This document shows, piece after piece, positions 38,123 to 50,137 of a stretch of DNA of 64,000 nt. The translations under genes were made by a program, and so were the position numbers. Each line of letters begins with the position of its first letter. Within the stretch, counting starts at the first letter, position 1. This stretch comes from Alcanivorax sp. (lineage in GTDB: Bacteria; Pseudomonadota; Gammaproteobacteria; Pseudomonadales; Alcanivoracaceae): the NCBI GenBank assembly GCA_022449455.1, contig JAKUPL010000010.1, positions 62,001 through 126,000 on the forward strand. Direction: 5' to 3'. The notes beneath the pieces were generated by a model. The model was not told the DNA's origin. It did no database searches and saw nothing but the letters and a program-made list of their open reading frames with translations.

Positions 38123-38281
38123 TTGCGTGGCCGTCTGGAGGGGAACACCTACCCCCTGATCGAAACCCAACGCCTGTTGCTGGAAGGCACCGGCGCCGCC
38201 GGCAAACTCGACGAAGAAGCGGTGATGATCCTCAACCACAAGGAGGCGATCCGTTATCTGGTGGAGCGGGCCGGCGCCTAG
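38123..38281 (+). CDS. Small conserved-looking protein after the crotonase gene
   Basis: The open frame encodes MRGRLEGNTYPLIETQRL and about 34 further residues ending IRYLVERAGA, 52 in all. It has a compact, protein-like composition (ILNHKEAIRYLV), codon use like its neighbours, and lies 13 bases after the crotonase stop. The start is unclear: TTG at 38123 with AGGG upstream is the only conventional candidate. Its stop overlaps the convergent Slam gene stop by three bases. Function unknown. Confidence 0.45.
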   Translation: MRGRLEGNTYPLIETQRLLLEGTGAAGKLDEEAVMILNHKEAIRYLVERAGA

Positions 38282-39786
38282 AAGCGCCACTCGACTTTCA
38301 GACTGGCGGTGTTTTCCTCATAGCTGTAGAGCCAGTCCACATTGCTGCGTACCCGGGCGTGTTCCAGGTTCAGGCTCGGGACCAGGCCGGCCAGGGACCA
38401 GCGCGGCGCACTGAGTACCGCGATGTAACGCTGCTCCCGATCCTCGCGGCGCGCGTCCAGCAGAGCGCTGTAGGCGTCGTAGCGCTTCTCGCGAAGCGAC
38501 GCGAACACGGTCAGATCGATGCCCGGCAGCAACGGCTTCGCCACGCCCAGGCGCACGCCGTACTGCCGGTAGGAACTGATGTCCTCGCGGGTGTCACGAT
38601 CCAGACCGTCGAGCCCGCCAAACAGAGTCCAGTCCGTTCCCAGGCGATGCCAAAGCGTGGCGTACAACGCCCGTGAAGCCCCATCGAAACGGGCGTAGGC
38701 GTCCTGGTCATAGCGCAGATGCTTGTGCTCGGCTTCCAGCTTGAAGGCGGTGCGTGGCGAGCGGTAATGCATCCATTCCGCGCGCCCGCCCCACGCCTGG
38801 TAGAGCGCGTCGTTGCCGTAATCGGTGTATTCGAACAGCGGCGACAGCGCGTAGCGGTTGCGCGCGTTTCGGTATTGGTAACCGGCGGCCAGACTGTAGG
38901 TGCCCTGATTATAGATGCTGTGATCCCGGTAGCGATCGCCGTAGGCCAGCCCGCGCAGGAACAGGCCGTGGTGGCCGGGCAAAAAGAGCGTTTTTTCCAC
39001 CGCCGCCTCGAAGCCCAGACTTTCGGTTTCGATGGCTTCCGGCGCCGACCGGCTGATGAAGCAGGCGCCGTTGCTGAACATCAGCAGACAGGTCTCGCTT
39101 TCGGAACTGAGGTTCACGTTGTCACTGTAGCCCGGACCAGCCGCCAGCCTGCCCTGCCATCTGCCCCGTTCCGCGATCGCTTGCAGAAACGCGGTGACCG
39201 TACCACGCACGCCCGCCGCCCGAGGATCATCGTCGGGCAGTTGATCCCGTATCGCTCGGAGTCGTCGGCGCGCCTCCCAGGTCTCATGGTTTTCGAACAG
39301 CACCCTGGCCAGTTCCAGCCGGCCCGGCAGGAAGTCCGGCTTGAGAGCCAGCAAGGTACGGAACTCCGCCTCCGCGGTGTCCAGCTCGCCGCGCAGGCGC
39401 GCCAGTTTGCCCTGGGCGTAATGCAGCAGCAATGGATCCGGATTTTCCAGCGCCCGGTAGGCTTCCAGAAAACGGGCCGCCGCCGACCAGTTCCGATTGC
39501 GTAACGCCACGTACAACGCCCGGCCCAGATCGTCGCGGTTGTTTTGTACCTGGTAGGTCTGACCGTTAATGATCAAATCGGGCAGCGGCTGGTCCTTGGC
39601 GCGTTCCTCCTCCAGCAGGTCCTGTTCACGTTCCCGGGCGGAACGTTCCAGGCCCTGGTTCAGGCGAAGCTCGGTGTCCTGGTCCGCGCCATGGACAGCC
39701 GGAACAGGAAGGATAAAAAGCAAAAAGGCGAGGCCGTAAACGCCACGCACTTTGTAGCCCAACGAGGAGCGGAAAAGAAAAGCCAT
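38278..39786 (-). CDS. Slam-type outer-membrane translocator (surface lipoprotein assembly modifier family)
   Basis: Predicted outer-membrane protein of 502 residues. A signal peptide ends near residue 33 (LPVPAVHGA). A TPR-like periplasmic part covers about 70-200 (AARFLEAYRALENPDPLLLHY, LKPDFLPGRLELARVLFE). A beta-barrel from about residue 205 (RLAAGPGYSDNVNLSS) runs to a C-terminal Phe (KVEWRF). This is the DUF560/Slam plan; Slams move TbpB-like lipoproteins or soluble hemophilins across the outer membrane. It lies 79 bases downstream of a hemophilin-like gene on the same strand, the usual substrate-Slam pairing. A barrel loop has two Cys (ETCLLMFSNGACF) that could form a disulfide. Confidence 0.88.
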   Translation of the reverse strand: MAFLFRSSLGYKVRGVYGLAFLLFILPVPAVHGADQDTELRLNQGLERSAREREQDLLEEERAKDQPLPDLIINGQTYQVQNNRDDLGRALYVALRNRNWSAAARFLEAYRALENPDPLLLHYAQGKLARLRGELDTAEAEFRTLLALKPDFLPGRLELARVLFENHETWEARRRLRAIRDQLPDDDPRAAGVRGTVTAFLQAIAERGRWQGRLAAGPGYSDNVNLSSESETCLLMFSNGACFISRSAPEAIETESLGFEAAVEKTLFLPGHHGLFLRGLAYGDRYRDHSIYNQGTYSLAAGYQYRNARNRYALSPLFEYTDYGNDALYQAWGGRAEWMHYRSPRTAFKLEAEHKHLRYDQDAYARFDGASRALYATLWHRLGTDWTLFGGLDGLDRDTREDISSYRQYGVRLGVAKPLLPGIDLTVFASLREKRYDAYSALLDARREDREQRYIAVLSAPRWSLAGLVPSLNLEHARVRSNVDWLYSYEENTASLKVEWRF

Positions 39787-39865
39787 GGGGCATCGAAATC
39801 CTTGCGGCGGGAAGGCCGGTCGGTGTCCTTTCCAAAGCCGGCCTGATCAGCGAACGAAGCGGGTG

Positions 39866-40618
39866 TTAGCGGGCCCCACCAAAGGCGGTGTCGTAGTCGC
39901 TGTTGCCGCTGAAGGTGGCCATGCCGGCCAGAGCGGCGGCGTTGGTGCCGTAGAACTCGCCCACGCTGACGCCGGTCTCGGTACCCGCACCACCGATGGC
40001 GGTCGCGGTGCCGGCGAACGAGGAGCCGCTGATGGTGGCGTTAACGTCAACGTAGAGCGCGGCATTACTGAAATCACCGGTCACCGTGTTGCCGCCGAAG
40101 TCCGCGGTCAGGGTGCCACTGAGTGCGCCACCGGCGGTATGTTGGTTGATCCCGGTCACGGTGTAGTCCACCTGGCCGGAAGTCGGCATGGTGGCATCCA
40201 CATTGCCCTTCTCACCCACGTAGTACACGGCGCGGTGCTCGAAATTCGGGCTACCGGCTTCGGACCATTCGCCGAACCAAACGTCCTCACTGCCGGCCTG
40301 GGCGAAGCTGAACACGCCCATGCCGCTGTGATCGGGATCGTCCACGTCAATCGGCGAGCTCAGGGTATGCACTCCGTCGATATCGGAGGGGGAAAAGACG
40401 GACAGGAACTGGAAGTCCACCTTGTCGTCGATATCCATGGAGTTGGTTTCCACCCCGATACCGGCCAGGCCGGACGTGTGCGGCCCGGCGTCCACCGTGG
40501 ACGTATCGACCTCGACGTAGGTGTTATCGCTCTCGCCGCCGACCACCGCCGCCTGGGTCAGGGAAGCGGCGGACAGCGCCGCCACGGCCAGCGCCGCTTT
40601 AAAGGTCATCTCTTTCAT
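39866..40618 (-). CDS. Hemophilin-like Slam-dependent secreted protein (candidate hemophore)
   Basis: The 250-residue protein has a type I signal peptide (about 1-24, SLTQAA) and no lipobox Cys, so it should be soluble after export. The N-terminal half includes FSFAQAGSEDVWFGEWSEAG and a YYVGEKG turn. The C-terminal half is the TbpB-like eight-stranded barrel of Slam substrates: DYTVTGINQH, SGTLTADFGGNTVTGDF, and the closing GEFYGTNAAALAGMATF ending TAFGGAR. This layout matches hemophilin/HphA, which binds heme. The start MKEMTF has AAGGAG upstream; a longer frame to 40714 lacks signal-peptide form. Heme binding is inferred from family and locus, not from identified ligands. Confidence 0.85.
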   Translation of the reverse strand: MKEMTFKAALAVAALSAASLTQAAVVGGESDNTYVEVDTSTVDAGPHTSGLAGIGVETNSMDIDDKVDFQFLSVFSPSDIDGVHTLSSPIDVDDPDHSGMGVFSFAQAGSEDVWFGEWSEAGSPNFEHRAVYYVGEKGNVDATMPTSGQVDYTVTGINQHTAGGALSGTLTADFGGNTVTGDFSNAALYVDVNATISGSSFAGTATAIGGAGTETGVSVGEFYGTNAAALAGMATFSGNSDYDTAFGGAR

Positions 40619-40660
40619 TGCTCTACTCCTTGATCCGTTATTGATGAACCCCAAAGAGAT

Positions 40661-40679
40661 GCGAAGAATTCGCATTCTC
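40661..40679 (-). promoter_or_regulatory. Fur-like site upstream of the hemophilin-like gene
   Basis: On the minus strand GAGAATGCGAATTCTTCGC matches the Fur consensus at 11 of 19 positions and contains the inverted repeat AGAAT-GCGA-ATTCT. It lies about 43 bases before the ATG, a normal operator position. It is weaker than the sites before fecI and the PKD gene. Confidence 0.4.
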
Positions 40680-40744
40680 ATATGGATAACGAGAGCGGAG
40701 ACGCGCTTTTTCATTGCCGGCAGAAAATTTTAGTGGCCCATCAC

Positions 40745-40770
40745 AAAAAAACCGGGCCCGAAGGCCCGGT
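40745..40770 (-). terminator. Intrinsic terminator after the PKD lipoprotein gene
   Basis: Read on the minus strand, ACCGGGCC-TTCG-GGCCCGGT forms a strong eight-pair stem (overlapping loop bases) followed directly by TTTTTT. It lies about 30 bases after the PKD gene stop and before the hemophilin promoter, so the two genes are likely separate transcripts. Confidence 0.85.
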
Positions 40771-40798
40771 TGGTCATGCACCGAAAAAACGTAGGGGC

Positions 40799-43378
40799 TT
40801 AATCGTCGTCGATGGTGACCGTCCAGCCCGGTTGTTCCCGTACGCTGAAGCCGCCGCGGATGTTGCCGTCCTTCAATCGCTGCAGCATCTGCGACGCTTC
40901 GATAATGCTCGCCGGTGGTGTCTCACCCGCGATGTTGACCCGATACAGGAGTTCCACGGTCTCCCCTTCGGCGATCATATAGCCATCGGTCACGGGTTCA
41001 CCGCTGGCCGTATCCAGGAACGACGCACTGTAATTCGTATTCTCCGAGCCGCTGGCCACGTTCACCAGCGTATAGTCACCGCCGAAGGCGGTGAGCCGGA
41101 AACGTTCCACGTCGATGTCCGGGCCCTTCCAGGGATAAAGGTGCGAAACATTGAAGGCATTACGCAGGGTAAGCGGAAAGAACGCCTGCACATCGATAGC
41201 GGATGGCTGCGCCGCCAGCCTTCTTGAGGGGACTTCCATCAACAAGGTCGGATAATTGGCCCGTTCCACGGCATGGACCGTGGCCGTGAACGGTCCGGCG
41301 AATTCGCTGCCGTCGTAGACCTGATACTGGAACACGAAAACACCCGGCAGCGTCGGAGAAAACGCGGGCCCGGCACACGGCCACTCCGTATAAGCCTCGA
41401 TACGTTCCCGAAATGCCGGCCAGCTCTCCTGACTCGCTGGCGTCCAGGGTTCCACGCAGGTGCCCTCGCCACGGGCATCCATGCCGGAGGACGAATTCAC
41501 CTGCATGTGATTGCCCGCCGGAGCGCTGACCAGGGTCCAGAGGTGACTGAGCGTATCGCCGTCCGGATCGGTGCTGTCCGCTTCCAGTTTGAATTGGTCG
41601 GCCCGGAACTCGGTTGTACCACTGTCCAGCCACTGATGAGTGATCGCGAAAGGCTGCAACGGGTCGTAGTTCGGATATTGCCGCTCCGCTCCAAACCGGT
41701 TCTCGTAGCCGGCCTGTCCGGAGGTTCCCTTGTAGAGCCGGGTGATCGGCGGCGTATTCGTGGTTTTCGCCAGCACCACCACTTCGTAGAGGCTGTTGCC
41801 CGGTGTGTAGCTGCTCTGGGCGCCATGTTCATCGGTGACCATCAGGGTCACCACATAGGCGCCGGCCCGATCCGGGGTCAGCGCCGGAAACGCCGTATCG
41901 GCGCGTTGCAATTGCGCCTGGCTGTTATCCGGCCGCTGGACCAGCGTCCACTGATAGCTCAGACGGTTATCGTCCGGATCGGAGCTGCCCTCGCCGTCCA
42001 GGGTAATCGGATTGCCCACCAGGGTGGTGGGGGTGCCGCCGGCGATGGCCGCCCGCGCGGAAGGCGCCCGGTTAGCGCCCAGGCGCGCGGTGAAGGTCTC
42101 CTCGGTGGAGGCGTCGGCCTCACCGTCGGACACCGTCAGCCGCACCCGGTAGTTGCCGTCCACGGTGGGGGTGAAGGTGGCCGGGCAGTAGGTGGCGGAA
42201 CAGTAGCTGCCGGGCTCCAGGCCGTTGGCGCCATCCGGATCGTAACCGCTCGGGTGGGCGACCATCTCCCAGGTATGGGTCAGAGCGTCGCCGTCCACGT
42301 CGTAGGCACCACTGCTCACGGTGACCTCCGCGCCGCGTTCCGCTTCGAACGTATCGCCGTTGCCCGGGTTGATCACCGCCACCGGCGCGGTGTTGGCTTG
42401 CCCGTCCGCGGGGGACGCCTCGATGCGAGAGCTGGTGCAGTTCCGGGAAACGCCGTCGAACACGCACAGCTCCACGTTATAGCGGCCGGTACCATAGGCG
42501 GAGTCGGCCACGAAGCGGGTCCGCGGGCCGTCGATGCTGCTCAGTTGAGCGTTGGAACCGCGCGGCAGACTCTGAACAAAGCGCCACCGGTATTGCAGGC
42601 TGTCACCGTCCGCGTCCTCGCTGCCGCTGCCGTCCAGTTCCACGGTGTCGCCGCGGTTTACGTCAGTGGGTGCCTGAATACGCGCCACCGGAATGGCGTT
42701 GGCCTCGACGATATTGATGTCCACGGTGTCCGGTTGGCTCACCTTGTCGCCGTAGCGCACCACCAGACGGGCCTGGTAGAGGCCGACTTCATCGGCGGTG
42801 AAGCGCGGATAAACCTGGCTGCCATCGTCCAGCTCCGCCGCGCTCCCCTCGGGCTTTTGCGTCAGCGTCCAGTCATAAACCAGCTGGCCGGCTTCGCCCC
42901 CGTCCGGCGGCAAGCTGCGTGAGCCGTCCAGTTGCACGGTACCGAGAATCCAATTGATCTCGTCGGGCACCACCGCCAGCGGGTTGGGATTGAGGGCGGT
43001 GATGGTGACCCGGCTGGCGCTGGTGTCACCGCTGCCGGCGGTGCCATCGTTGACCACCAGGCGAATCACGTAGGTGCCGGGCAGGTCCGGGGTGAAACTG
43101 GCCCGATCGGTGTCGGCGCCGTCCAGGGTGGCTTCGCTGCCCTCCGGGCGACTCAGGAAGTGCCATTCCCAGGTGGTGATGTCGCCGTTGGGCGAGGTGC
43201 TGGCGCTGCCGTCCAGTTGCACGCTGCCTTCACCGGCGTTCACTTCCGTGGTGTCGGCGCTGGCGCGGGCCTGGGGGCGGTCCACGGCGTCGCCGCCCCC
43301 TCCGCCACCACCACCGCCGCAGGCGGCAAGCGCCAGCAACAAACAAAACAGGGACATTGATCTGATCAGCACGGCCAT
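40799..43378 (-). CDS. Large PKD-repeat surface/outer-membrane lipoprotein, function unknown
   Basis: The 859-residue lipoprotein has the lipobox LALAAC (Cys20) followed by nine glycines, a flexible tether. Five PKD/Ig-like units lie at about 36-128, 133-225, 228-322, 330-432 and 437-536, each with a phrase like LDGSGSEDADGDSLQYRW. A sixth, expanded unit spans about 541-715. The C-terminal 140 residues (from VERANYPTLLMEV) resemble no domain I recognise and end in Asp-Asp-Asp. Paired cysteines in units 3, 4 and 6 could form disulfides. The start was placed at the signal peptide; the upstream frame runs into exbB antisense. It has its own Fur-like site and terminator, and lies between the Slam/hemophilin pair and exbB-exbD-tonB, implying a role in the same iron/heme uptake system. 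Confidence 0.85.
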   Translation of the reverse strand: MAVLIRSMSLFCLLLALAACGGGGGGGGGDAVDRPQARASADTTEVNAGEGSVQLDGSASTSPNGDITTWEWHFLSRPEGSEATLDGADTDRASFTPDLPGTYVIRLVVNDGTAGSGDTSASRVTITALNPNPLAVVPDEINWILGTVQLDGSRSLPPDGGEAGQLVYDWTLTQKPEGSAAELDDGSQVYPRFTADEVGLYQARLVVRYGDKVSQPDTVDINIVEANAIPVARIQAPTDVNRGDTVELDGSGSEDADGDSLQYRWRFVQSLPRGSNAQLSSIDGPRTRFVADSAYGTGRYNVELCVFDGVSRNCTSSRIEASPADGQANTAPVAVINPGNGDTFEAERGAEVTVSSGAYDVDGDALTHTWEMVAHPSGYDPDGANGLEPGSYCSATYCPATFTPTVDGNYRVRLTVSDGEADASTEETFTARLGANRAPSARAAIAGGTPTTLVGNPITLDGEGSSDPDDNRLSYQWTLVQRPDNSQAQLQRADTAFPALTPDRAGAYVVTLMVTDEHGAQSSYTPGNSLYEVVVLAKTTNTPPITRLYKGTSGQAGYENRFGAERQYPNYDPLQPFAITHQWLDSGTTEFRADQFKLEADSTDPDGDTLSHLWTLVSAPAGNHMQVNSSSGMDARGEGTCVEPWTPASQESWPAFRERIEAYTEWPCAGPAFSPTLPGVFVFQYQVYDGSEFAGPFTATVHAVERANYPTLLMEVPSRRLAAQPSAIDVQAFFPLTLRNAFNVSHLYPWKGPDIDVERFRLTAFGGDYTLVNVASGSENTNYSASFLDTASGEPVTDGYMIAEGETVELLYRVNIAGETPPASIIEASQMLQRLKDGNIRGGFSVREQPGWTVTIDDD

Positions 43379-43413
43379 AAGGGGTATCTCCCAAGGAAAG
43401 CGTCGCACCCTTT

Positions 43414-43432
43414 GAGGGTGATTCTCATTTAC
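43414..43432. promoter_or_regulatory. Fur-like box in the divergent PKD-exbB intergenic region
   Basis: On the minus strand GTAAATGAGAATCACCCTC matches the Fur consensus at 13 of 19 positions. It lies 36 bases before the PKD gene start and 110 bases before exbB, in the 163-base region from which both are transcribed. It could control both directions. Confidence 0.5.
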
Positions 43433-43541
43433 AGCCTTATAACGAGTCAGACACCGGGATTTTTCACCCCGACGAGAAACACTGAAAATTCCCTGGCCGG
43501 GCTTCGTTATTAGGGTGGATGCATCACCTTGGGAAAAACGT

Positions 43542-44303
43542 ATGTTGCCACCACGTCTGGCGCGGCCCGCTGTCGCGCTGCTGGTCTTTTCGCTGGCATG
43601 GGTCGTGGCCCCCGCCAGCGCCAATACTCTCCCCCATGATCTGACGCCGCTGGGCATGTTCCGGCAGGCGGACTGGGTGGTGAAGGCGGTGATGCTCGGC
43701 CTGCTGGCGGCGTCGTCGATTACCTGGATCGTGCTGCTGGCCAAAAGCCGGGAACTGGCGGTCTTGATGCGCCGCCAGCGGCGCGCCCTGGCCGCGCTGA
43801 CAGCGGCGGCCAGCCTGGAACAGGCGGAGGACGAGGACCACGAAGCCGGCCTCTTCCTGGCCACCGCCCGGCAGGAATGGCGGCTCTCCAGCGCCGTGCT
43901 GGACGACCGGGAGGGGCTCAAGGAGCGGGTGGCCGCCAGCCTGCAACGGCTGGAAGCGGCCAGTGGCCGGCGCGCCGGTCGCGGCACCGGAGTGCTGGCC
44001 ACCATCGGCGCCACGGCGCCGTTCGTGGGCCTGTTCGGTACCGTCTGGGGGATCATGAACAGCTTTATCGGCATCTCCCAGGCCAACACCACCAACCTGG
44101 CGGTGGTGGCGCCGGGCATCGCCGAGGCGTTGCTGGCCACGGCGCTGGGGCTGGTGGCGGCGATTCCGGCGGTGGTGATCTACAACCATTTCGCCCGGCG
44201 CCTGCAGACCTACCGGGCACTGGTGGGCGACACCAGCGCGGCGGTGCTGCGGCTGGTGTCCCGGGACCTCAGCCGCCGCGCCGCGGCGCCGGCCGGGGGC
44301 TGA
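43542..44303 (+). CDS. exbB: ExbB/MotA/TolQ-family proton channel protein
   Basis: Inner-membrane motor subunit that with ExbD converts proton motive force into TonB movement. It has 253 residues. An N-terminal hydrophobic segment ending ASA looks like a cleavable signal, then TM1 around AVMLGLLAASSITWIVLLA. The conserved pair of helices is at GVLATIGATAPFVGLFGTVWG and AEALLATALGLVAAIPAVVIYN. The ATG was preferred to a GTG nine codons upstream because GGGAAA precedes it. First of exbB-exbD-tonB. Confidence 0.93.
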   Translation: MLPPRLARPAVALLVFSLAWVVAPASANTLPHDLTPLGMFRQADWVVKAVMLGLLAASSITWIVLLAKSRELAVLMRRQRRALAALTAAASLEQAEDEDHEAGLFLATARQEWRLSSAVLDDREGLKERVAASLQRLEAASGRRAGRGTGVLATIGATAPFVGLFGTVWGIMNSFIGISQANTTNLAVVAPGIAEALLATALGLVAAIPAVVIYNHFARRLQTYRALVGDTSAAVLRLVSRDLSRRAAAPAGG

Positions 44304-44306
44304 GCC

Positions 44307-44729
44307 GTGGGCCTGCGCATCGACCACGACGACGAACTGGCGGAACACCACGAGATCAACGTCACCCCGTTCATCGATGTGATGCTGGTGCTGCTGATCA
44401 TCTTCATGGTGGCGGCGCCGCTGGCCACCGTGGACATCAAGGTGGACCTGCCGGCGGCCAGCGCCGCCCCGGAGGACCGCCCGGACGACCCGCTCTGGCT
44501 GACCCTGGCCGAGGACCATTCCCTGACCCTGGGCGACACCCCGGTGGCCGACGGCGGCCTGGCGGCGGCGCTGGCCAGCGCCAGCGACGGCCGCGAGGAT
44601 CCACGCATCTTCCTGCGCGCGGACAGCCGGGTGGACTACCGGACCCTGATGGGCACCCTGGACCGCCTGCGCGAGGCCGGCTACCTGAAGGTGGCCCTGG
44701 TGGCCCGGGACGGCGCCGGCGATGAATGA
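44307..44729 (+). CDS. exbD: ExbD-family TonB energising protein
   Basis: Single-span partner of ExbB, 140 residues. The essential membrane Asp is in EINVTPFIDVMLVLLIIFMV. The periplasmic domain follows and ends RLREAGYLKVALVARDGA. The start is GTG three bases after exbB. It overlaps tonB by eight bases. Confidence 0.94.
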   Translation: MGLRIDHDDELAEHHEINVTPFIDVMLVLLIIFMVAAPLATVDIKVDLPAASAAPEDRPDDPLWLTLAEDHSLTLGDTPVADGGLAAALASASDGREDPRIFLRADSRVDYRTLMGTLDRLREAGYLKVALVARDGAGDE

Positions 44730-45717
44730 TCTGAGCCGGCCGGGGGCGACGCGCGCACCGCTGGCGCCGGTGGCGCCGCCGGCCGACCTGATAGCGGGCG
44801 CCGCCGGGCCGGGGCTGAGCGCCGACACCCGGCGCTGGCTGAGCTCCACCTTGTTGGTGACCCTGGTGTACGCGGCGCCACTGGGCTGGTGGCTGTGGCG
44901 AGCACCACCACCGGCGATGGACAGCGCCCCGGCGGCGGCCATGGTGGTGGAACTGGCGCCGCTGGCCACCTCCCCGGCCAACCCCACGGAACTGCCGCCG
45001 GGCCCTGAAAGCCAGGCCAACCAGGCCTCCCGGGCGGCGCCCCCGGAACCCCGACCTGAACCCCGGCTTGAACCAAAGCCCGAACCGGCCACGCCCCCCG
45101 CTCCGGCACCCCCCACCCCCGCCGAGCCGGAGGCGGTACTGCCCGAGGCGGAGCCTCAGCCCGAGCAGAAAGAGCCTCAGCCCGAGCAAGAAAAGCCTCA
45201 GCCCGAGCAGAAAGAACCTCAGCCCGAGCAACGGGCGCCCCAACCGGACCCGACGCCGGAACCGCCACCGACCGAACAAGCGGCGGAATCCCCCTCCCCG
45301 GAAAAGGCCTCCAGCGACGCGACGGCCTCCACCGCCAGCGCGCCGCCGGACGCCGCCCGGCAATCGGAACGGGCGGCGGCGCCCCGCCAGGGCGTGGAGC
45401 GCCCCATGGCCGATCTGAACCAGGTGCCGAGCTGGCGGGACACCTTGCTGCGCCGGCTCAACGAGGCCAAGCGCTATCCGTCCCGGGCCCGGCGGCTGCG
45501 CCAGGAAGGCGTGGGCTATCTGCGCTTCGAGATGGACATGGAAGGCCGGGTGCTGGCCAGTGGCATCGCCCGCAGCTCCGGCTATCCGTTGCTGGATGAG
45601 GAAACCCTGGCGCTGCTGCGTCGCGCCGCCCCGCTGCCGCGCCCGCCCAAGGCGCTGGCCGGGCAACGGCTGGAGTTCGTGGTGCCGGTGGAGTTCTTCC
45701 TCAGTACTGGACGGTAA
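44722..45717 (+). CDS. tonB: TonB protein
   Basis: Energy transducer to outer-membrane receptors, 331 residues. The N-terminal anchor spans about 39-59 (LSSTLLVTLVYAAPLGWWLW). A long Pro/Glu-rich periplasm-spanning region (about 75-210) includes four near-identical PQPEQKE-type octads. The C-terminal TonB domain (about 240-331) has YPSRARRLRQEGVGYLRFEM and ARSSGYPLLDEETLALLRRA. Linkage to exbBD and a receptor suggests a dedicated system. Its 3' end overlaps the convergent receptor gene by 17 bases. Confidence 0.94.
   Translation: MNDLSRPGATRAPLAPVAPPADLIAGAAGPGLSADTRRWLSSTLLVTLVYAAPLGWWLWRAPPPAMDSAPAAAMVVELAPLATSPANPTELPPGPESQANQASRAAPPEPRPEPRLEPKPEPATPPAPAPPTPAEPEAVLPEAEPQPEQKEPQPEQEKPQPEQKEPQPEQRAPQPDPTPEPPPTEQAAESPSPEKASSDATASTASAPPDAARQSERAAAPRQGVERPMADLNQVPSWRDTLLRRLNEAKRYPSRARRLRQEGVGYLRFEMDMEGRVLASGIARSSGYPLLDEETLALLRRAAPLPRPPKALAGQRLEFVVPVEFFLSTGR
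45157..45235 (+). repeat. In-frame tandem 24-nt repeats in tonB
   Basis: Four copies of a roughly 24-base unit (CCTCAGCCCGAGCAGAAAGA and variants) encode repeating PQPEQKE/PQPEQEK octads in the TonB periplasmic spacer. Copy-number change would alter spacer length without breaking the frame. Confidence 0.8.
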
Positions 45718-48454
45718 CGCCGAGCCGGGCGGTGCGGCCCGGCGCCGGCACCATGCCCAGGCTCAGAGCGTCCAGATAATACTGGTCGGTGACGTTGTCC
45801 ACGTTGAAGTCCACCGACAGCGTGTCGTTGGGCGTCCAGGTCACGAACGCATCCAGAATCGAATACTTGTGCCAGGGGATCGGTCGCGCGAAACGGCCGG
45901 CGGTCTGATCGTTGTACTCCGGCACCCGGTTGCGGGCACCCATCCAGGTATTGCGCGCGCCCACTTCCAGGCGCCGGTCGAACAACCGGAAGCCGAGCGT
46001 GGCGTTGGCCTGCCAGTTGGGCGGAATCATGTTGTTGATATAGCTGCTCGCCACGCCGTAATCGGTGCAGCGCTGGCGCCGATAGCTGCCCTCGTGGCAC
46101 AGCTCGATGTTGTTGTAGCGGGTGCCGCCCAATTCCGTGTAGACCCAGCCCAGATCGTATTCCAGGGACAGTTCCAGGCCGTGGAATTCCACACTCTCCA
46201 GGTTCTGGATGCGGAACAGCGCCGCGTTCTGGCCGATGCTGGTGTTGTCCCAGGTATTGGGGATGGTGCGGGTCAGATAGTCCTCGGTGCGATTCTGAAA
46301 ATAGGCCAGTTTGAAACGCAGCGCGTCGCCGCCGGCGAACAGGTCGTCCTTGAGGATGTTCATGCCCACCTCCTTGTTCTCGGCGCGCTCCGGCTTGATG
46401 CGCTGCCCGGGCACCGCCGCCACCGAAAAGCCGGTGGTGGTTTCGAACAGGCTGGGCATGCGCAGGGCCTCGGAGTACTTGGCGAAGAACTGCAGGCCGC
46501 GCAGCGGCTCCCAAAGCAGGCTCGCCATCGGCGCCGAACCGGAATCGCTGAAGTCGTTGTAGAGCGGATCACAGGCGCCGTCGCCATCGCCGTCCACGCA
46601 GAAATCGCTGTTCGGGTCGTTGACCTCGGTGGGGCGGCGGTCGGAGGACTGATACCGGGTGTAGCGGATGCCCGCGTCCAGCGTCAGGGTCGGCACGAAG
46701 GTCCATTTCACCGCCAGGAAGCCGCTGGTTTCCTCGCGCTCGCCATCGCGCAAGCCAAAGCCGTCACCGTCCTGGTACCGTTTCGGCTCCACCTCCTCCC
46801 GCTGCCAGGCCAGGCCATAACGAAACTGCAGATCGCCAAAGCGCGGCACGGAGGTGGTGTTGCTCAGGTCACCGCCCCAGCGCTGATAGATCTCGGTGCC
46901 GGGGCGCGCGTTCAGCAGCTCCATCAGCTCGTCGGAATAGCTGTTGTTGCGGCTTTCCGTATCGGTGTGCCAGACATGGCTGTCGATATCCAGCCAGTCG
47001 TTGTCCAGCGGCTGCCACTGATAACGGGCGGTGTAGGTGTTGGCGATGACCTCGGAGGGACGGGTCTGCTTGATGCGGCCCAGCCACAGCAGCTCCGAGG
47101 GCATCAGTTCCCCGTACTCGCTGTCGTAGCGCAGGTAGCTGAGGTCCAGGGTGTGCTCGTCGCTGGGATAGAGTCGGGTTTTGAGCAGCAGGGACTCGCT
47201 TTCGAAGTGAGTGTTGACCACTTCCTCGCCACCGCGGATGCGCGAAGCGCCGTCCACCTCCGGGCGGATTTCGGTGTAAAAGCCCCGGTCATAGCGCTCC
47301 GACAAATCCAGGCCGGGCGTGGGGCCGTGTTCACCGGCGAAGTAGTTGCCCTGGCGACGTTGCGCGTAAGCGGCCACCAGATCGGCGCCGGCCAGACGCC
47401 GGGTCGCCGCCAGACTGCCGGCGTGGCCGTCGAAGTCCAGCAGCCCAGGCCGGTCCATGGAGCCGTCCGGCGGATAGGCGTTGTCCAGATCATAGATGCC
47501 TTCGCACAGCGAGCTGCCCGGCAGGCAGTCGGTGCGGTAATGGGACGGGGTGCCCAGGCCACCCACGTTGTAACCGGCCTGGGTGCCGATCGGCGCCGGC
47601 GAGCCGCTGTTGTTGCCCACCAGGCTGCCGCGCAAACGCAGCCCCCAGTCGTTGCCGGGTTTGGCGATGTCGTCGGCGTTCAGGGTGTGCATGCGCACCA
47701 GCCCGCCGATGGCGCCGGTGCCGCTGGCGCCCATGGTGGGGCCCTTGTCGATTTCCACGCCGCCGATCAGATCCGGGTCGATGTAGCTGCGGCTGGTGAC
47801 CCCGGCGTAGCCTCGGTAGACCGTGGTCTCCTGGCGGGCGCCGTCCACCAGCACCGGCACCCGGCCCTGGCCTTGCATGCCGCGGATGTTGATATTGAGG
47901 CCGCCACTGTTGCGGTTCTCCGCCACCAGCACGCCGGTGGTGCCCTTGAACATGTCGCCCACGGACAGCCCCCGAAAACGTTCGATGTCCTGCTGGCCGA
48001 TATAGGCGGAGGACCCGGCGGTGGCGTAGGGCCGGTCGGCGGCGGCGGACTGGCGGGGGCCATCGCCCTGAACCTTCACCGCCGGCAGCATCTGCGCGTC
48101 GCCCAACCCGGTCAGGGCACGAACCACCACGGTTTTTCCCGCGCCGAAATACCAGCTCAGGCCGGTGCCATCGAGCAGACGGTCCAGCGCGACCGGCACC
48201 GGAAGCCGGCCGGTCACCGGCCGGGAGCGACGCTCGCCAAGCTCACCGGCGTCGGCGGTAACCTGGTAGCCGGACTGCTGGGCGAAGCGATCCAGAGCGC
48301 CGGGCAGGGACTGGGCGGGAATATCGAACTCCGTGCCGTCGTCGGCGAGCGCGCCGCCGGCCGGCCACAACGCCATCAACGCCAGCACGCAAAACGCCAG
48401 CGGCCAGAACGCCGGCGACAGCCGCCGACGGCCTGGTCGGTGATTCAGTATCAT
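45701..48454 (-). CDS. TonB-dependent outer-membrane receptor with N-terminal STN signalling domain (heme-type)
   Basis: The 917-residue receptor has a signal peptide to about residue 38 (GGALA). An STN domain (about 44-112) is seen as FDIPAQSLPGALDRFAQQSG and LLDGTGLSWYFGAGKTVVV. A TonB box-like LPAVKVQGD precedes the plug (about 140-280), which holds GGLNINIRGMQGQGRVPVLV. A 22-strand barrel follows, with the heme-receptor-like FRAP region YSEALRMPSLFETT and KPERAENKEVG, ending in aromatic Tyr (TVQY). STN receptors signal occupancy to FecR. HasR/HphR-like heme uptake is the best reading, though the histidine typical between the FRAP and NPNL boxes is not seen. The start has AGGAAG upstream. 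Confidence 0.88.
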   Translation of the reverse strand: MILNHRPGRRRLSPAFWPLAFCVLALMALWPAGGALADDGTEFDIPAQSLPGALDRFAQQSGYQVTADAGELGERRSRPVTGRLPVPVALDRLLDGTGLSWYFGAGKTVVVRALTGLGDAQMLPAVKVQGDGPRQSAAADRPYATAGSSAYIGQQDIERFRGLSVGDMFKGTTGVLVAENRNSGGLNINIRGMQGQGRVPVLVDGARQETTVYRGYAGVTSRSYIDPDLIGGVEIDKGPTMGASGTGAIGGLVRMHTLNADDIAKPGNDWGLRLRGSLVGNNSGSPAPIGTQAGYNVGGLGTPSHYRTDCLPGSSLCEGIYDLDNAYPPDGSMDRPGLLDFDGHAGSLAATRRLAGADLVAAYAQRRQGNYFAGEHGPTPGLDLSERYDRGFYTEIRPEVDGASRIRGGEEVVNTHFESESLLLKTRLYPSDEHTLDLSYLRYDSEYGELMPSELLWLGRIKQTRPSEVIANTYTARYQWQPLDNDWLDIDSHVWHTDTESRNNSYSDELMELLNARPGTEIYQRWGGDLSNTTSVPRFGDLQFRYGLAWQREEVEPKRYQDGDGFGLRDGEREETSGFLAVKWTFVPTLTLDAGIRYTRYQSSDRRPTEVNDPNSDFCVDGDGDGACDPLYNDFSDSGSAPMASLLWEPLRGLQFFAKYSEALRMPSLFETTTGFSVAAVPGQRIKPERAENKEVGMNILKDDLFAGGDALRFKLAYFQNRTEDYLTRTIPNTWDNTSIGQNAALFRIQNLESVEFHGLELSLEYDLGWVYTELGGTRYNNIELCHEGSYRRQRCTDYGVASSYINNMIPPNWQANATLGFRLFDRRLEVGARNTWMGARNRVPEYNDQTAGRFARPIPWHKYSILDAFVTWTPNDTLSVDFNVDNVTDQYYLDALSLGMVPAPGRTARLGVTVQY

Positions 48455-48491
48455 GCTTCCTGGTCTCCCCGGGGTGCGAATGTGAATACGA

Positions 48492-48505
48492 CGCATTTCA
48501 ATGCG
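48492..48505. promoter_or_regulatory. Short inverted repeat before the receptor gene
   Basis: CGCATTTCAATGCG has perfect six-base arms around two bases and lies 38 bases before the receptor ATG. It may be part of a FecI-type promoter (the minus strand includes TGAAAT) or an operator. It is reported as a candidate only. Confidence 0.3.
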
Positions 48506-48557
48506 ATCACGGGGGAACAACGAACGAGGCGGGGCGTTTTTTCAGGGAGCGGTCAAA

Positions 48558-49502
48558 TCAAAGCACGATGCGCAGAAGCGGCGTGATCCGCAGCACACGG
48601 CCACCGTGGGGCTGGACCATGGCCGCCAGGGCGGCGTCCACGTCGGTGAGGTCGTAGCTGCCGGTGACCCGGCGCGCGGCCAGGGCGTCATCGGCGATCA
48701 GGATGTAACCGCGGGCGTGACGCTCCAGGGTGTCCGCCAGATCCGCCAGGGTGCGGTCCTGCACGAACAGCCGGCCCTGCCGCCAAACCGCCACCCGGTC
48801 CGGCGCCGACCGTTGCACCCGGGCGGTGCCGCTGGCGCGGTCCAGGGCCCACTGGTCGCCGGGCAACAAATGGCGGGCCCGCCCACCCCGGTAACTGACC
48901 GCCACTTCACCGTGGCTGACGCCGACGCCGTAGCTCTCGTCGTCCTCGCGGACGCTGAAGGCGGTGCCGATGTCGCGGGCACGCACTTCATCGGCCACCA
49001 CCAGGAAGGGGCGCGGATCGGCGGCCACTTCGAAGAAGGCTTCACCGCGCAGCAACCGCACGCGGCGCTCACCGTCGCTGAATTCCTCGGCCAGCGCACT
49101 GTCGGCGCCAAGCACCACGGCACTGCCGTCGGCCAGCGTCACGGCCAGGGTCTGCCCCACCCCGGTGCGATAATCCGCCTGCCAGTAACGCCAGGCGGCG
49201 GGCATCAGGGCCAGCAGCAAACAGGCGGCCAGCGCCAGGGCGGTCCGCGGCGGCCAGCGCCGGCGGTTGACCGGCGCCTCGCCGTGCCCCGGCCAGCGTT
49301 GCCGCTGCACCGGCAGGTCGCCGACCAACGCCCAGGCCTCGCTGACCCGCCGCCAGGCGTCCTCGTGGCGCTCATCCCGGGCCCGCCAGTCAGCGCAGGC
49401 GCGTCGCAGGGCCGGGTCCCGCGGCGCTTCGTCCAGCCGCAGCTTCCAGTCACTGGCCTCACGCAACAGCGCGTTGTCGGCGGGCTTATCGGAATCTTCC
49501 AT
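48558..49502 (-). CDS. fecR: FecR-family anti-sigma/signal-transducing protein
   Basis: Inner-membrane regulator of the adjacent ECF sigma factor, 314 residues. The cytosolic N-terminal domain (about 11-56) has the Trp-rich pattern EASDWKLRLDEAP and CADWRARDERHEDAW. One membrane helix spans 87-105. The periplasmic FecR domain (about 113-235) includes VTLADGSAVVLGADSAL and VRLLRGEAFFEVAADPRPF. The STN-like C-terminal domain (about 245-310) should contact the receptor. It lies 51 bases after fecI and 104 bases before the receptor start. Confidence 0.93.
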   Translation of the reverse strand: MEDSDKPADNALLREASDWKLRLDEAPRDPALRRACADWRARDERHEDAWRRVSEAWALVGDLPVQRQRWPGHGEAPVNRRRWPPRTALALAACLLLALMPAAWRYWQADYRTGVGQTLAVTLADGSAVVLGADSALAEEFSDGERRVRLLRGEAFFEVAADPRPFLVVADEVRARDIGTAFSVREDDESYGVGVSHGEVAVSYRGGRARHLLPGDQWALDRASGTARVQRSAPDRVAVWRQGRLFVQDRTLADLADTLERHARGYILIADDALAARRVTGSYDLTDVDAALAAMVQPHGGRVLRITPLLRIVL

Positions 49503-49553
49503 CTTCGATCCGGGGCTGGGCTTCGTGGCGCGAAACCGGGCTTAGGGCCTGCC

Positions 49554-50048
49554 CTAATCCAGGGCGGCGGCAAGATGCGCCATGGCATCGCGTACCAGGC
49601 GGTGGGCGGTGGCCGTGGACACCTCCAGCCGCTCGGCGATTTCCGCCAGAGTATAGCCACCGACCCGGTGCATTTCGATGGCCAGACGCTGGCGCCGGGG
49701 CAGACCGTCCAACACGCCGGCCAGGCGATCCAGACGGTCGTGCTGCATGGCGGTCTGCTCGGGGCTGCTTTCCTCCCGCGGCTTGAGCCACTCCACCGTT
49801 TCTTCGTTCTGGTGGCGGCTCTCCATGGCCGAGCGACGGGTAAAATCAATCGCCAGGTTGCGCACGATGCGGTACAGGTAGGCCACGCCGGAGCCGGTCG
49901 GCCGCCGGCCGTCGGGCACGAAACGCAGAAAGGCGTCCTGAACCAGATCCTCGGCACGGGCCCGGCAGCCGACGATGGAGGTGACGTAGTCCACCAGCGC
50001 GGCCCGATGGTCCAGATACGCCTTGAGATTGCTGTCGGTGTATTTCAC
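49554..50048 (-). CDS. fecI: FecI-type ECF sigma-70 factor
   Basis: Iron-starvation ECF sigma factor, 164 residues. Region 2 includes AEDLVQDAFLRFVP and VAYLYRIVRNLAIDFTRR. Region 4 has LPRRQRLAIEMHRVGGYTLA and the recognition helix STATAHRLVRDAM. The GTG at 50048 is chosen because GGGAGA lies just upstream and the length then fits the family; an ATG at 50120 would put extra Arg/Gly-rich residues in front and start inside the Fur-like region. A strong Fur box precedes it. It probably directs transcription of the receptor gene. Confidence 0.92.
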   Translation of the reverse strand: MKYTDSNLKAYLDHRAALVDYVTSIVGCRARAEDLVQDAFLRFVPDGRRPTGSGVAYLYRIVRNLAIDFTRRSAMESRHQNEETVEWLKPREESSPEQTAMQHDRLDRLAGVLDGLPRRQRLAIEMHRVGGYTLAEIAERLEVSTATAHRLVRDAMAHLAAALD

Positions 50049-50118
50049 CCGTCTCCCACCCGCTTGATAAGGGCCCTTGTCGAACCCTGGTCGTCGCCCG
50101 AGGAGACAGAATCTAAAC

Positions 50119-50137
50119 AAAAATCATTCTCATTACA
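50119..50137 (-). promoter_or_regulatory. Fur box upstream of fecI
   Basis: On the minus strand TGTAATGAGAATGATTTTT matches the Fur consensus at 13 of 19 positions, with the characteristic AATGAGAATGAT core. It stands in an AT-rich island about 71 bases before the fecI GTG, between moeB and fecI. It gives the standard Fur-then-FecI hierarchy. Confidence 0.65.

Follow-up and report, generated by a model that had tools for sequence, protein, structure and literature searches.

A hemophilin–Slam locus of an Alloalcanivorax relative with a receptor-linked PKD-repeat lipoprotein as a candidate heme co-receptor

In a 64,000-nucleotide stretch of the Alcanivorax sp. assembly GCA_022449455.1 (contig JAKUPL010000010.1, positions 62,001 to 126,000; hereafter the window), we analysed a nine-gene locus at positions 38278–50137, encoding a Slam translocator, a hemophilin (HphA), a PKD-repeat lipoprotein, ExbB, ExbD, TonB, a TonB-dependent receptor, FecR and FecI. 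All nine genes are present as originally predicted from the letters, and each passes at least one curated family cut-off. The host is a relative of Alloalcanivorax. We consider it probable that the locus serves heme piracy under iron control and couples two modules, FecI–FecR–receptor–PKD with ExbB–ExbD–TonB on the one hand and hemophilin–Slam on the other, with the PKD lipoprotein most likely serving as a co-receptor. Slam–hemophilin heme uptake is the known kind of system here, and the new element is a receptor branch linked to a PKD lipoprotein; gene neighbourhoods show that the FecI–FecR–receptor–PKD unit also occurs without hemophilin in related bacteria. Two points go beyond the original prediction, namely that PKD lipoprotein and receptor are linked, and that the latter stands outside the branch of seven ordinary hemophilin loci.

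Linkage of the PKD lipoprotein to one receptor branch

A profile of the PKD protein's C-terminal domain (alignment A1) was searched in overlapping samples of 369 class, 390 order and 398 phylum genomes, and 10–20 kb were read around each strong match (E ≤ 1e-30); the reading of neighbourhoods went down to matches of 1e-9. This gave 16 strong matches in 11 genomes: one each in the window, G021, G024, G035, G250, G228, G404, G060 and G555, two in G019 and five in G029 (G and L numbers are our handles for genomes and loci). In eleven of them the gene immediately upstream, on the same strand, encodes an HphR-like receptor, with a gap of 12–44 bases, measured to likely start codons, in ten cases (two of these PKD genes have no lipobox by pattern, and their open-frame start was used) and of ~280 bases, with a Fur-like site inside it, in the hemophilin unit of G029. 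In three more (the window, G021 and G024) only a divergent ExbB–ExbD–TonB block separates PKD from receptor, one (in G029) is a tandem copy, and the last (in G060) is a remnant carried by an open frame of 329 residues, whose neighbours include FecI, heme oxygenase and ExbBD-TonB but no such receptor. The window's arrangement, with two tandem PKD copies, recurs in G022, a genome outside the 16 that was read after the family search. Receptor-linked PKD genes are found in the window's genus and, within its family, in a second genus (G035); they also occur in two further families of the order (G250; G228 and G404) and in a different order of the class (G555). Several PKD–receptor loci carry no hemophilin in the stretches read, and whole-genome searches for the hemophilin domain HphA_N gave no match in five of the six carriers with no hemophilin in view (G019, G035, G250, G228 and G404; the sixth is G555).

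The receptors next to these genes form a branch of their own. In a 17-row tree, PKD-linked receptors and those of ordinary hemophilin loci part with support of 100/100; in a tree of 23 rows, one of them a distant outgroup, the seven ordinary receptors form one branch (100/99) and the PKD-linked receptors a 15-row branch that includes the window receptor (93/97, below the level starred by the tool). The ordinary branch consists of receptors from seven other hemophilin loci, the Acinetobacter baumannii receptor itself lying outside the comparison. The window receptor is 78.9–97.6% identical to four orthologues, 50.4% to the receptor of the second hemophilin-like unit of G029 and 44.4–55.7% to nine PKD-only receptors, as against 29.6–32.1% to the seven ordinary ones. 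One loop segment measures 57–78 residues in all 15 PKD-type receptors and 146–173 in all seven ordinary ones, whose long loop (~70–115 more residues) the window receptor lacks; in the window receptor, the loop covers residues 614–672 of the 939-residue frame, i.e. 59 residues, and it is 59–60 residues long in the hemophilin-linked Alloalcanivorax receptors. H518 is likewise kept in 15/15 PKD-type receptors and in 0/7 ordinary ones. In one respect both branches are HphR-like rather than HasR-like: of the two histidines that are the heme ligands of HasR, H189 is matched in all 22 receptors by a plug RGY, with Tyr aligned to it, and H603 is matched by a His in none. The window receptor exceeds the cut-off of the TonB-hemin model TIGR01785 (343 against 316.85 bits), while its STN domain falls just below its own (28.0 against 28.4 bits). 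Its short loop contains, at residues 641–650 of the same numbering, a DGDGDG stretch between two cysteines that resembles the calcium-binding thrombospondin type 3 motif; several PKD-type receptors have similar stretches.

The PKD protein matches several Pfam PKD families, and its C-terminal domain is common to 13 aligned proteins. An AlphaFold2 model built from 14 sequences is a mostly beta multidomain chain in loose domain arrangement (mean predicted local distance difference test score, pLDDT, 81.7; predicted template modelling score, pTM, 0.54), and the C-terminal domain modelled alone is a beta-sandwich (pLDDT 82.8). A fold search with the full model returned 593 matches at E ≤ 0.001, the 50 listed being long multi-domain chains with low template modelling scores (TM-scores); the C-terminal model returned six at that threshold (best E 4e-4), all to one glycoside hydrolase at a TM-score of ~0.3. 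From these models, the protein may be read as a rod built of Ig-like domains, anchored by lipid at one end and bearing an undescribed beta-sandwich at the other. A C-terminal TbpB-type barrel was not detected: Pfam matched neither TbpB nor HphA_C in the protein, and the beta-sandwich model has no close solved match. Among open-licence papers, we recognised none, from titles and abstract openings, on a PKD lipoprotein paired with a heme receptor.

Several further observations touch this family. A free-standing PKD paralogue of 740 amino acids is encoded elsewhere in the window's own genome (G000:C31; L070:564-2786), and loci in G020 and G021 show the same length and match values, with mobile-element-like genes seemingly near by eye. 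At three hemophilin-free loci, a small TPR-repeat protein follows PKD on the same strand (L037:9220-9786, L039:9057-9698 and L041:6669-7346). A large heme locus at ~265–328 kb of G029:C2 (L041, L113, L034, L042 and L116) holds four HphR-like receptors, five PKD lipoproteins, an ExbBD-TonB block, HphA with Slam, two further Slam-like genes and frames reading as permease and ATPase; the first 36 residues of one gene of the ExbBD-TonB block are nearly equal to those of a heme oxygenase tested below (L109).

Layout, hemophilin module and candidate Fur sites

The features of the locus are as follows (window coordinates).

38278..39786, minus strand: Slam, outer-membrane translocator of the type XI secretion system (T11SS), HsmA-like; 502 amino acids; PF04575, PF24575
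39866..40618, minus strand: hemophilin, HphA-like secreted hemophore; 250 amino acids; PF22828, PF22829, PDB 8gmm
40656..40682, minus strand: palindromic Fur-like element upstream of HphA; 2-mismatch match at 40664
40750..40771, minus strand: terminator-like hairpin between the PKD gene and HphA; 9-bp stem, then a T run
40799..43378, minus strand: PKD-repeat lipoprotein; 859 amino acids; lipobox LAAC (Cys20); Pfam PKD families
43417..43429, minus strand: Fur-like site in the divergent PKD/ExbB intergenic region; 2 mismatches
43515..44303, plus strand: ExbB; TIGR02797, 298.7 bits; possible ATG start at 43542
44307..44729, plus strand: ExbD; TIGR02803, 176.5 bits
44722..45717, plus strand: TonB; TIGR01352, 1e-16
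45701..48454, minus strand: TonB-dependent heme receptor with STN domain, of the PKD-associated HphR-like subfamily; TIGR01785, tree, identity and loop length
48558..49502, minus strand: FecR-type anti-sigma regulator; PF04773, 9.2e-20
49554..50048, minus strand: FecI-type extracytoplasmic function (ECF) sigma factor; PF08281, PF04542; TIGR02937, 1.5e-24
50122..50134, minus strand: exact Fur-like site upstream of FecI; AATGAGAATGATT, 0 mismatches

Leftward, the locus reads FecI–FecR–receptor, then PKD, HphA and Slam; rightward, it reads ExbB–ExbD–TonB, a block that overlaps the 3′ end of the receptor gene by 17 bases and shares the intergenic region from which the PKD gene starts. The HphA start was corrected to the ATG at 40618, giving 250 amino acids. 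Judged from sequence and relatives, FecI most likely starts at 50048 (open frame from 50120), the position at which the FecI alignment of the L035 relative begins, and the receptor most likely at 48454 (open frame from 48520).

Total G+C lends no support to an unusual base composition (63–73% in the nine locus genes, 64–73% in six flanking genes), although third-position G+C is somewhat low in six of the nine (0.77–0.86, against 0.87–0.91 in the six flanks; lowest in Slam and PKD). The locus lies at a variable site, because the position between ECH and MoeB differs in content among relatives and is occupied by other genes in G020, G023 and G027. No clean empty site was found among the relatives read there, and GatB was not seen within the 12–13 kb read on that side of MoeB in G018, G019, G028 and G029. 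A plasmid search with the PKD protein gave 18 records, none covering 80% of the query and all below 60% identity.

The hemophore part of the original prediction held: the 250-residue protein is a hemophilin with both likely axial histidines, and Slam is adjacent to it. HphA passes the cut-offs of PF22828 (HphA_N, 3e-31) and PF22829 (HphA_C, 4.9e-16), also matches TbpB_B_D, and over residues 32–249 matches the solved hemophilins 8gmm (4.7e-46) and 8gm3 (7.6e-38). Its family profile also matches chain 7re4 (3.8e-51), the A. baumannii protein. Among 13 aligned HphA rows, H97 is present in all and H47 in 12; in the 7re4 alignment the second conserved His is gap-free and the first is offset by two residues. 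H43 and H106 are given as the heme ligands of A. baumannii HphA in PMC8560813, and H47 and H97 are likely to be the axial ligands here. The signal peptide of HphA has no Cys, as in the soluble class of Slam cargo (PMC8406197), an assignment against which we count the match of HphA to the NCBIfam model 'Slam-dependent surface lipoprotein' (122.4 bits, cut-off 80). The nearest named hits to HphA are those of Alloalcanivorax marinus NMRL4 (93% identity) and Alloalcanivorax profundimaris (85%). Slam combines a TPR domain (TPR_Slam, PF24575, 3.2e-24) with a following SlipAM barrel (PF04575, 6.7e-54), and adjoins a cargo gene with HphA_C and TbpB_B_D matches; the genome has a single PF04575 match, this Slam, and a single PF22828 match, this HphA.

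HphA_N occurs in five of the 46 genomes of the window's family, all five among the 13 genomes of its genus, and in 11 of the 390 sampled genomes of the order, four of which are among the family's five. Of the two outcomes named with the original prediction as refuting it, neither occurred: the 250-residue protein matches solved hemophilins, and at related loci Slam stands together with a receptor of this family. At all eight hemophilin loci outside Alloalcanivorax (seven genomes and Stenotrophomonas L009), a FecI- or FecR-like gene is present, and none of the eight has a PKD homologue in the stretches read. G187 has two hemophilin–Slam–receptor sets close together (L046:8153-19899), the second divergent and cut at the stretch end. 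L042 (9729-12204, plus strand) encodes a divergent HphA-like protein of 295 amino acids with HphA_C only (24 bits, cut-off 31) and no HphA_N, which lies behind a receptor–PKD pair and before a DUF6607 protein, has its own Slam (31% identical) and is possibly a new type of Slam cargo. Similarly, a 265-residue protein that precedes the third Slam-like gene of G029 (L116:12519-14885, plus strand; 27% identical) may be a Slam cargo.

The Fur-like sites that had been predicted are present above chance: the pattern AATGANAATNATT with at most two mismatches occurs eight times in the window against 1.26 expected, and none of 100 shuffles reaches eight. Four of the eight lie at three intergenic starts of the locus, namely before FecI (one exact match and one overlapping match), between PKD and ExbB, and before HphA; a stricter 15-base Fur palindrome pattern has no match in the locus. 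Exact matches also stand just before FecI in L007 and before FecR in L043, where FecI was not called, and the PKD/ExbB site recurs in L007/L035 (apparently the same genome, counted once), L033 and L043. The palindrome before HphA was found by eye in all four related upstream regions (L007, L036, L033 and L034), at varying distance from the start; between near and far relatives (window 40656–40682 and L033/L034), both of its arms differ together by eye, which suggests the site of a dimeric regulator or a hairpin. Terminator-like sites show no excess in the region (seven, against 9.0 in shuffles), and a promoter scan found one where 1.5 were expected.

The co-receptor reading and its alternatives

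From the receptor family and the linked heme oxygenase, we infer that the FecI–FecR–receptor–PKD module serves heme. A heme oxygenase gene (PF01126, 74.8–87.0 bits, cut-off 23) adjoins ExbB at all four PKD-domain loci tested (L100, L101, L102 and L109); L102 being the remnant locus, three receptor-bearing PKD loci carry it. L068 has ExbBD-TonB with no heme oxygenase gene seen in the stretch read, and ExbBD was not seen in the stretches read at L037 and L038. As had been predicted, the window's locus has no adjacent heme oxygenase: the genome's single PF01126 match lies on another contig (G000:C69:127835), followed by frames that read, by eye, as a periplasmic heme-binding protein, a permease and an ATPase. 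The original description of the locus as self-contained is rejected, since heme oxygenase and the genes reading as a heme ABC importer lie on that other contig.

The system would then work as follows. Fur would act as repressor at three intergenic starts, one ahead of FecI, one in the PKD/ExbB gap and one ahead of HphA. By analogy with A. baumannii and Xenorhabdus, HphA would be exported by Sec and moved across the outer membrane by Slam; judged by the alignment, it would bind heme through H47 and H97. The receptor, energised by ExbBD-TonB, would take the heme and signal through its STN domain and FecR to FecI. The PKD lipoprotein, modelled as a rod of Ig-like domains and anchored by its N-terminal lipid, would be an outer-membrane co-receptor that captures or docks heme, a hemoprotein or holo-hemophilin in place of the missing long loop. 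Heme would finally enter through a HmuTUV-like importer and be opened by heme oxygenase; the genes for both lie outside the locus, elsewhere in the genome.

Several points weigh against this co-receptor reading. The surface position of the PKD protein and its contact with the receptor are both putative. Pfam names no family in its C-terminal domain and no heme-binding domain anywhere in the protein, and among the 50 matches listed for the C-terminal model the best TM-score by query is 0.36. That the varied loop is extracellular is our assumption from general TonB-receptor topology. None of the 11 weaker PKD homologues read (of 12 with E from 1e-20 to 1e-9 in the class and order samples; one, L103, lies at a contig end) is near such a receptor, and since these stand alone, proteins of this build can do other things. 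In units bearing HphA_N, PKD does not adjoin the receptor closely, ExbBD-TonB or, in G029, the ~280 bases lying between the two; in the window, the terminator-like hairpin separates it from HphA; and G060 has an ordinary hemophilin locus plus, elsewhere, the PKD remnant. Approximately unbiased (AU) tests did not reject trees joining the ordinary with the Alloalcanivorax hemophilin-linked receptors (p 0.076 when the outgroup row and the second G029 unit are included, 0.26 when both are left out), so that PKD loci may as well have lost hemophilin as gained it. The HphA and Slam trees are without resolution at depth and thus make no decision between the two; a tree proof that PKD loci gained hemophilin, which we had sought, fails on the same p values.

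It is unlikely that the locus is an ordinary hemophilin locus whose receptor is simply the local HphR and where the PKD lipoprotein merely happens to lie nearby and does something unrelated, such as adhesion or wall spacing. All ordinary parts are indeed present, PKD homologues also stand alone, and the hairpin sets PKD apart from HphA. Against this stand the 11 of 16 strong homologues that directly follow one receptor subfamily across several families and orders, and the fact that receptor subfamily and loop length track PKD, not hemophilin. Quite unlikely, in our view, is an import by receptor and PKD of something other than HphA-carried heme (heme from free hemoproteins, or another iron chelate), with hemophilin feeding another receptor or denying heme to competitors. 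The window receptor does lack the long loop of the seven ordinary hemophilin receptors, several PKD–receptor loci have no hemophilin, and Haemophilus haemolyticus hemophilin reportedly lowers infection by a competitor through heme sequestration (PMC10964412); yet heme oxygenase adjoins ExbB at four PKD loci, the window receptor lies above the TonB-hemin cut-off, this receptor branch is found in the hemophilin's locus in four of five Alloalcanivorax hemophilin genomes (on another contig in G024), and no long-loop receptor was seen beside hemophilin in these genomes. That the PKD protein is a second Slam cargo flipped to the surface is very improbable. In favour is that a lipoprotein is encoded next to Slam and HphA; against it, the protein matches neither TbpB nor HphA_C, the model of its C-terminal domain is a beta-sandwich, and the stretches read around PKD at L037, L038, L039, L068, L100 and L101 showed no Slam match.

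Beyond the co-receptor role, a wider reading, to which we give slightly less than an even chance, is that of an undescribed class of heme importer (FecI–FecR–receptor–PKD, at some loci with heme oxygenase and ExbBD-TonB), in which an HphR-like receptor is combined with a dedicated PKD-rod lipoprotein that replaces the long extracellular loop used for hemophilin docking in ordinary hemophilin receptors, and to which Alloalcanivorax couples hemophilin–Slam, giving a three-part relay of hemophore, lipoprotein and receptor. Should it prove to be a heme co-receptor, the PKD lipoprotein would be a new kind of partner in TonB-dependent heme uptake, would account for a receptor without the usual long loop serving a hemophore, and would mark, at the gene level, heme-uptake loci in which the PKD protein lacks a specific family name.

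Relation to known heme-uptake systems

Alloalcanivorax are marine oil degraders. Of the Slam cluster that secretes such cargo, 75% is animal-associated according to PMC8406197; against this mostly animal-associated background, the hemophilin pair here occurs in Alloalcanivorax and is joined with a receptor from another branch.

The A. baumannii hemO cluster lists an ECF sigma factor, an anti-sigma factor, hphR, hphA, hsmA, a TonB-related protein and heme oxygenase (PMC10483418, Table 1), and so shares with the window a sigma factor, anti-sigma factor, receptor, hemophilin, Slam and TonB-related gene in one cluster (also PMC8560813). Because that cluster lists both, FecI–FecR and TonB are no distinguishing mark. 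The window's locus differs in the lack of heme oxygenase, the added ExbB–ExbD and PKD lipoprotein and the inverted middle block, and its receptor belongs to another branch than the seven ordinary hemophilin-locus receptors compared. The PKD lipoprotein, which the original prediction had named as a difference from Acinetobacter, was thus borne out as one. The own energy source and cell-surface signalling that it inferred do not set the locus apart: A. baumannii has the ECF and anti-sigma factors, and the Stenotrophomonas sp. MMGLT7 locus (L009) has ExbBD-TonB. The latter locus resembles the window's in holding FecR, receptor, HphA, Slam, ExbB, ExbD and TonB within ~10 kb, and differs in having no PKD match at 1e-5 in 20.7 kb and a receptor of the long-loop branch.

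The Xenorhabdus Hrp locus (HrpA receptor, HrpB T11SS, HrpC hemophilin) shares the soluble Slam-secreted hemophilin, TonB and receptor, and the main text of its paper contains neither the word PKD nor the word sigma (PMC8406197). Serratia HasR, which also serves a hemophore (PMC8560813), is the closest solved receptor, with 191 bits for the window receptor and 99 for the ordinary receptor L048, and aligns in its N-terminal part too (HasR chain 2m5j). The Has system differs in the two ligand positions described above, with Tyr opposite H189 in 22/22 receptors and no His partner for H603, and in its hemophore, which is HasA and not a hemophilin; none of the nine genes encodes a HasDE-type exporter.

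TbpAB and SusCD are pairs of a transporter and a surface lipoprotein, and the gene of the Xus lipoprotein likewise adjoins that of its transporter. XusB is described as passing iron chelates to XusA (PMC13142918). The PKD gene resembles such partners in its conserved adjacency to the receptor gene, in 11 of 16 cases directly and in three more across ExbBD-TonB, and differs from them in that the PKD rod is of unrelated build and its contact with the receptor is putative.

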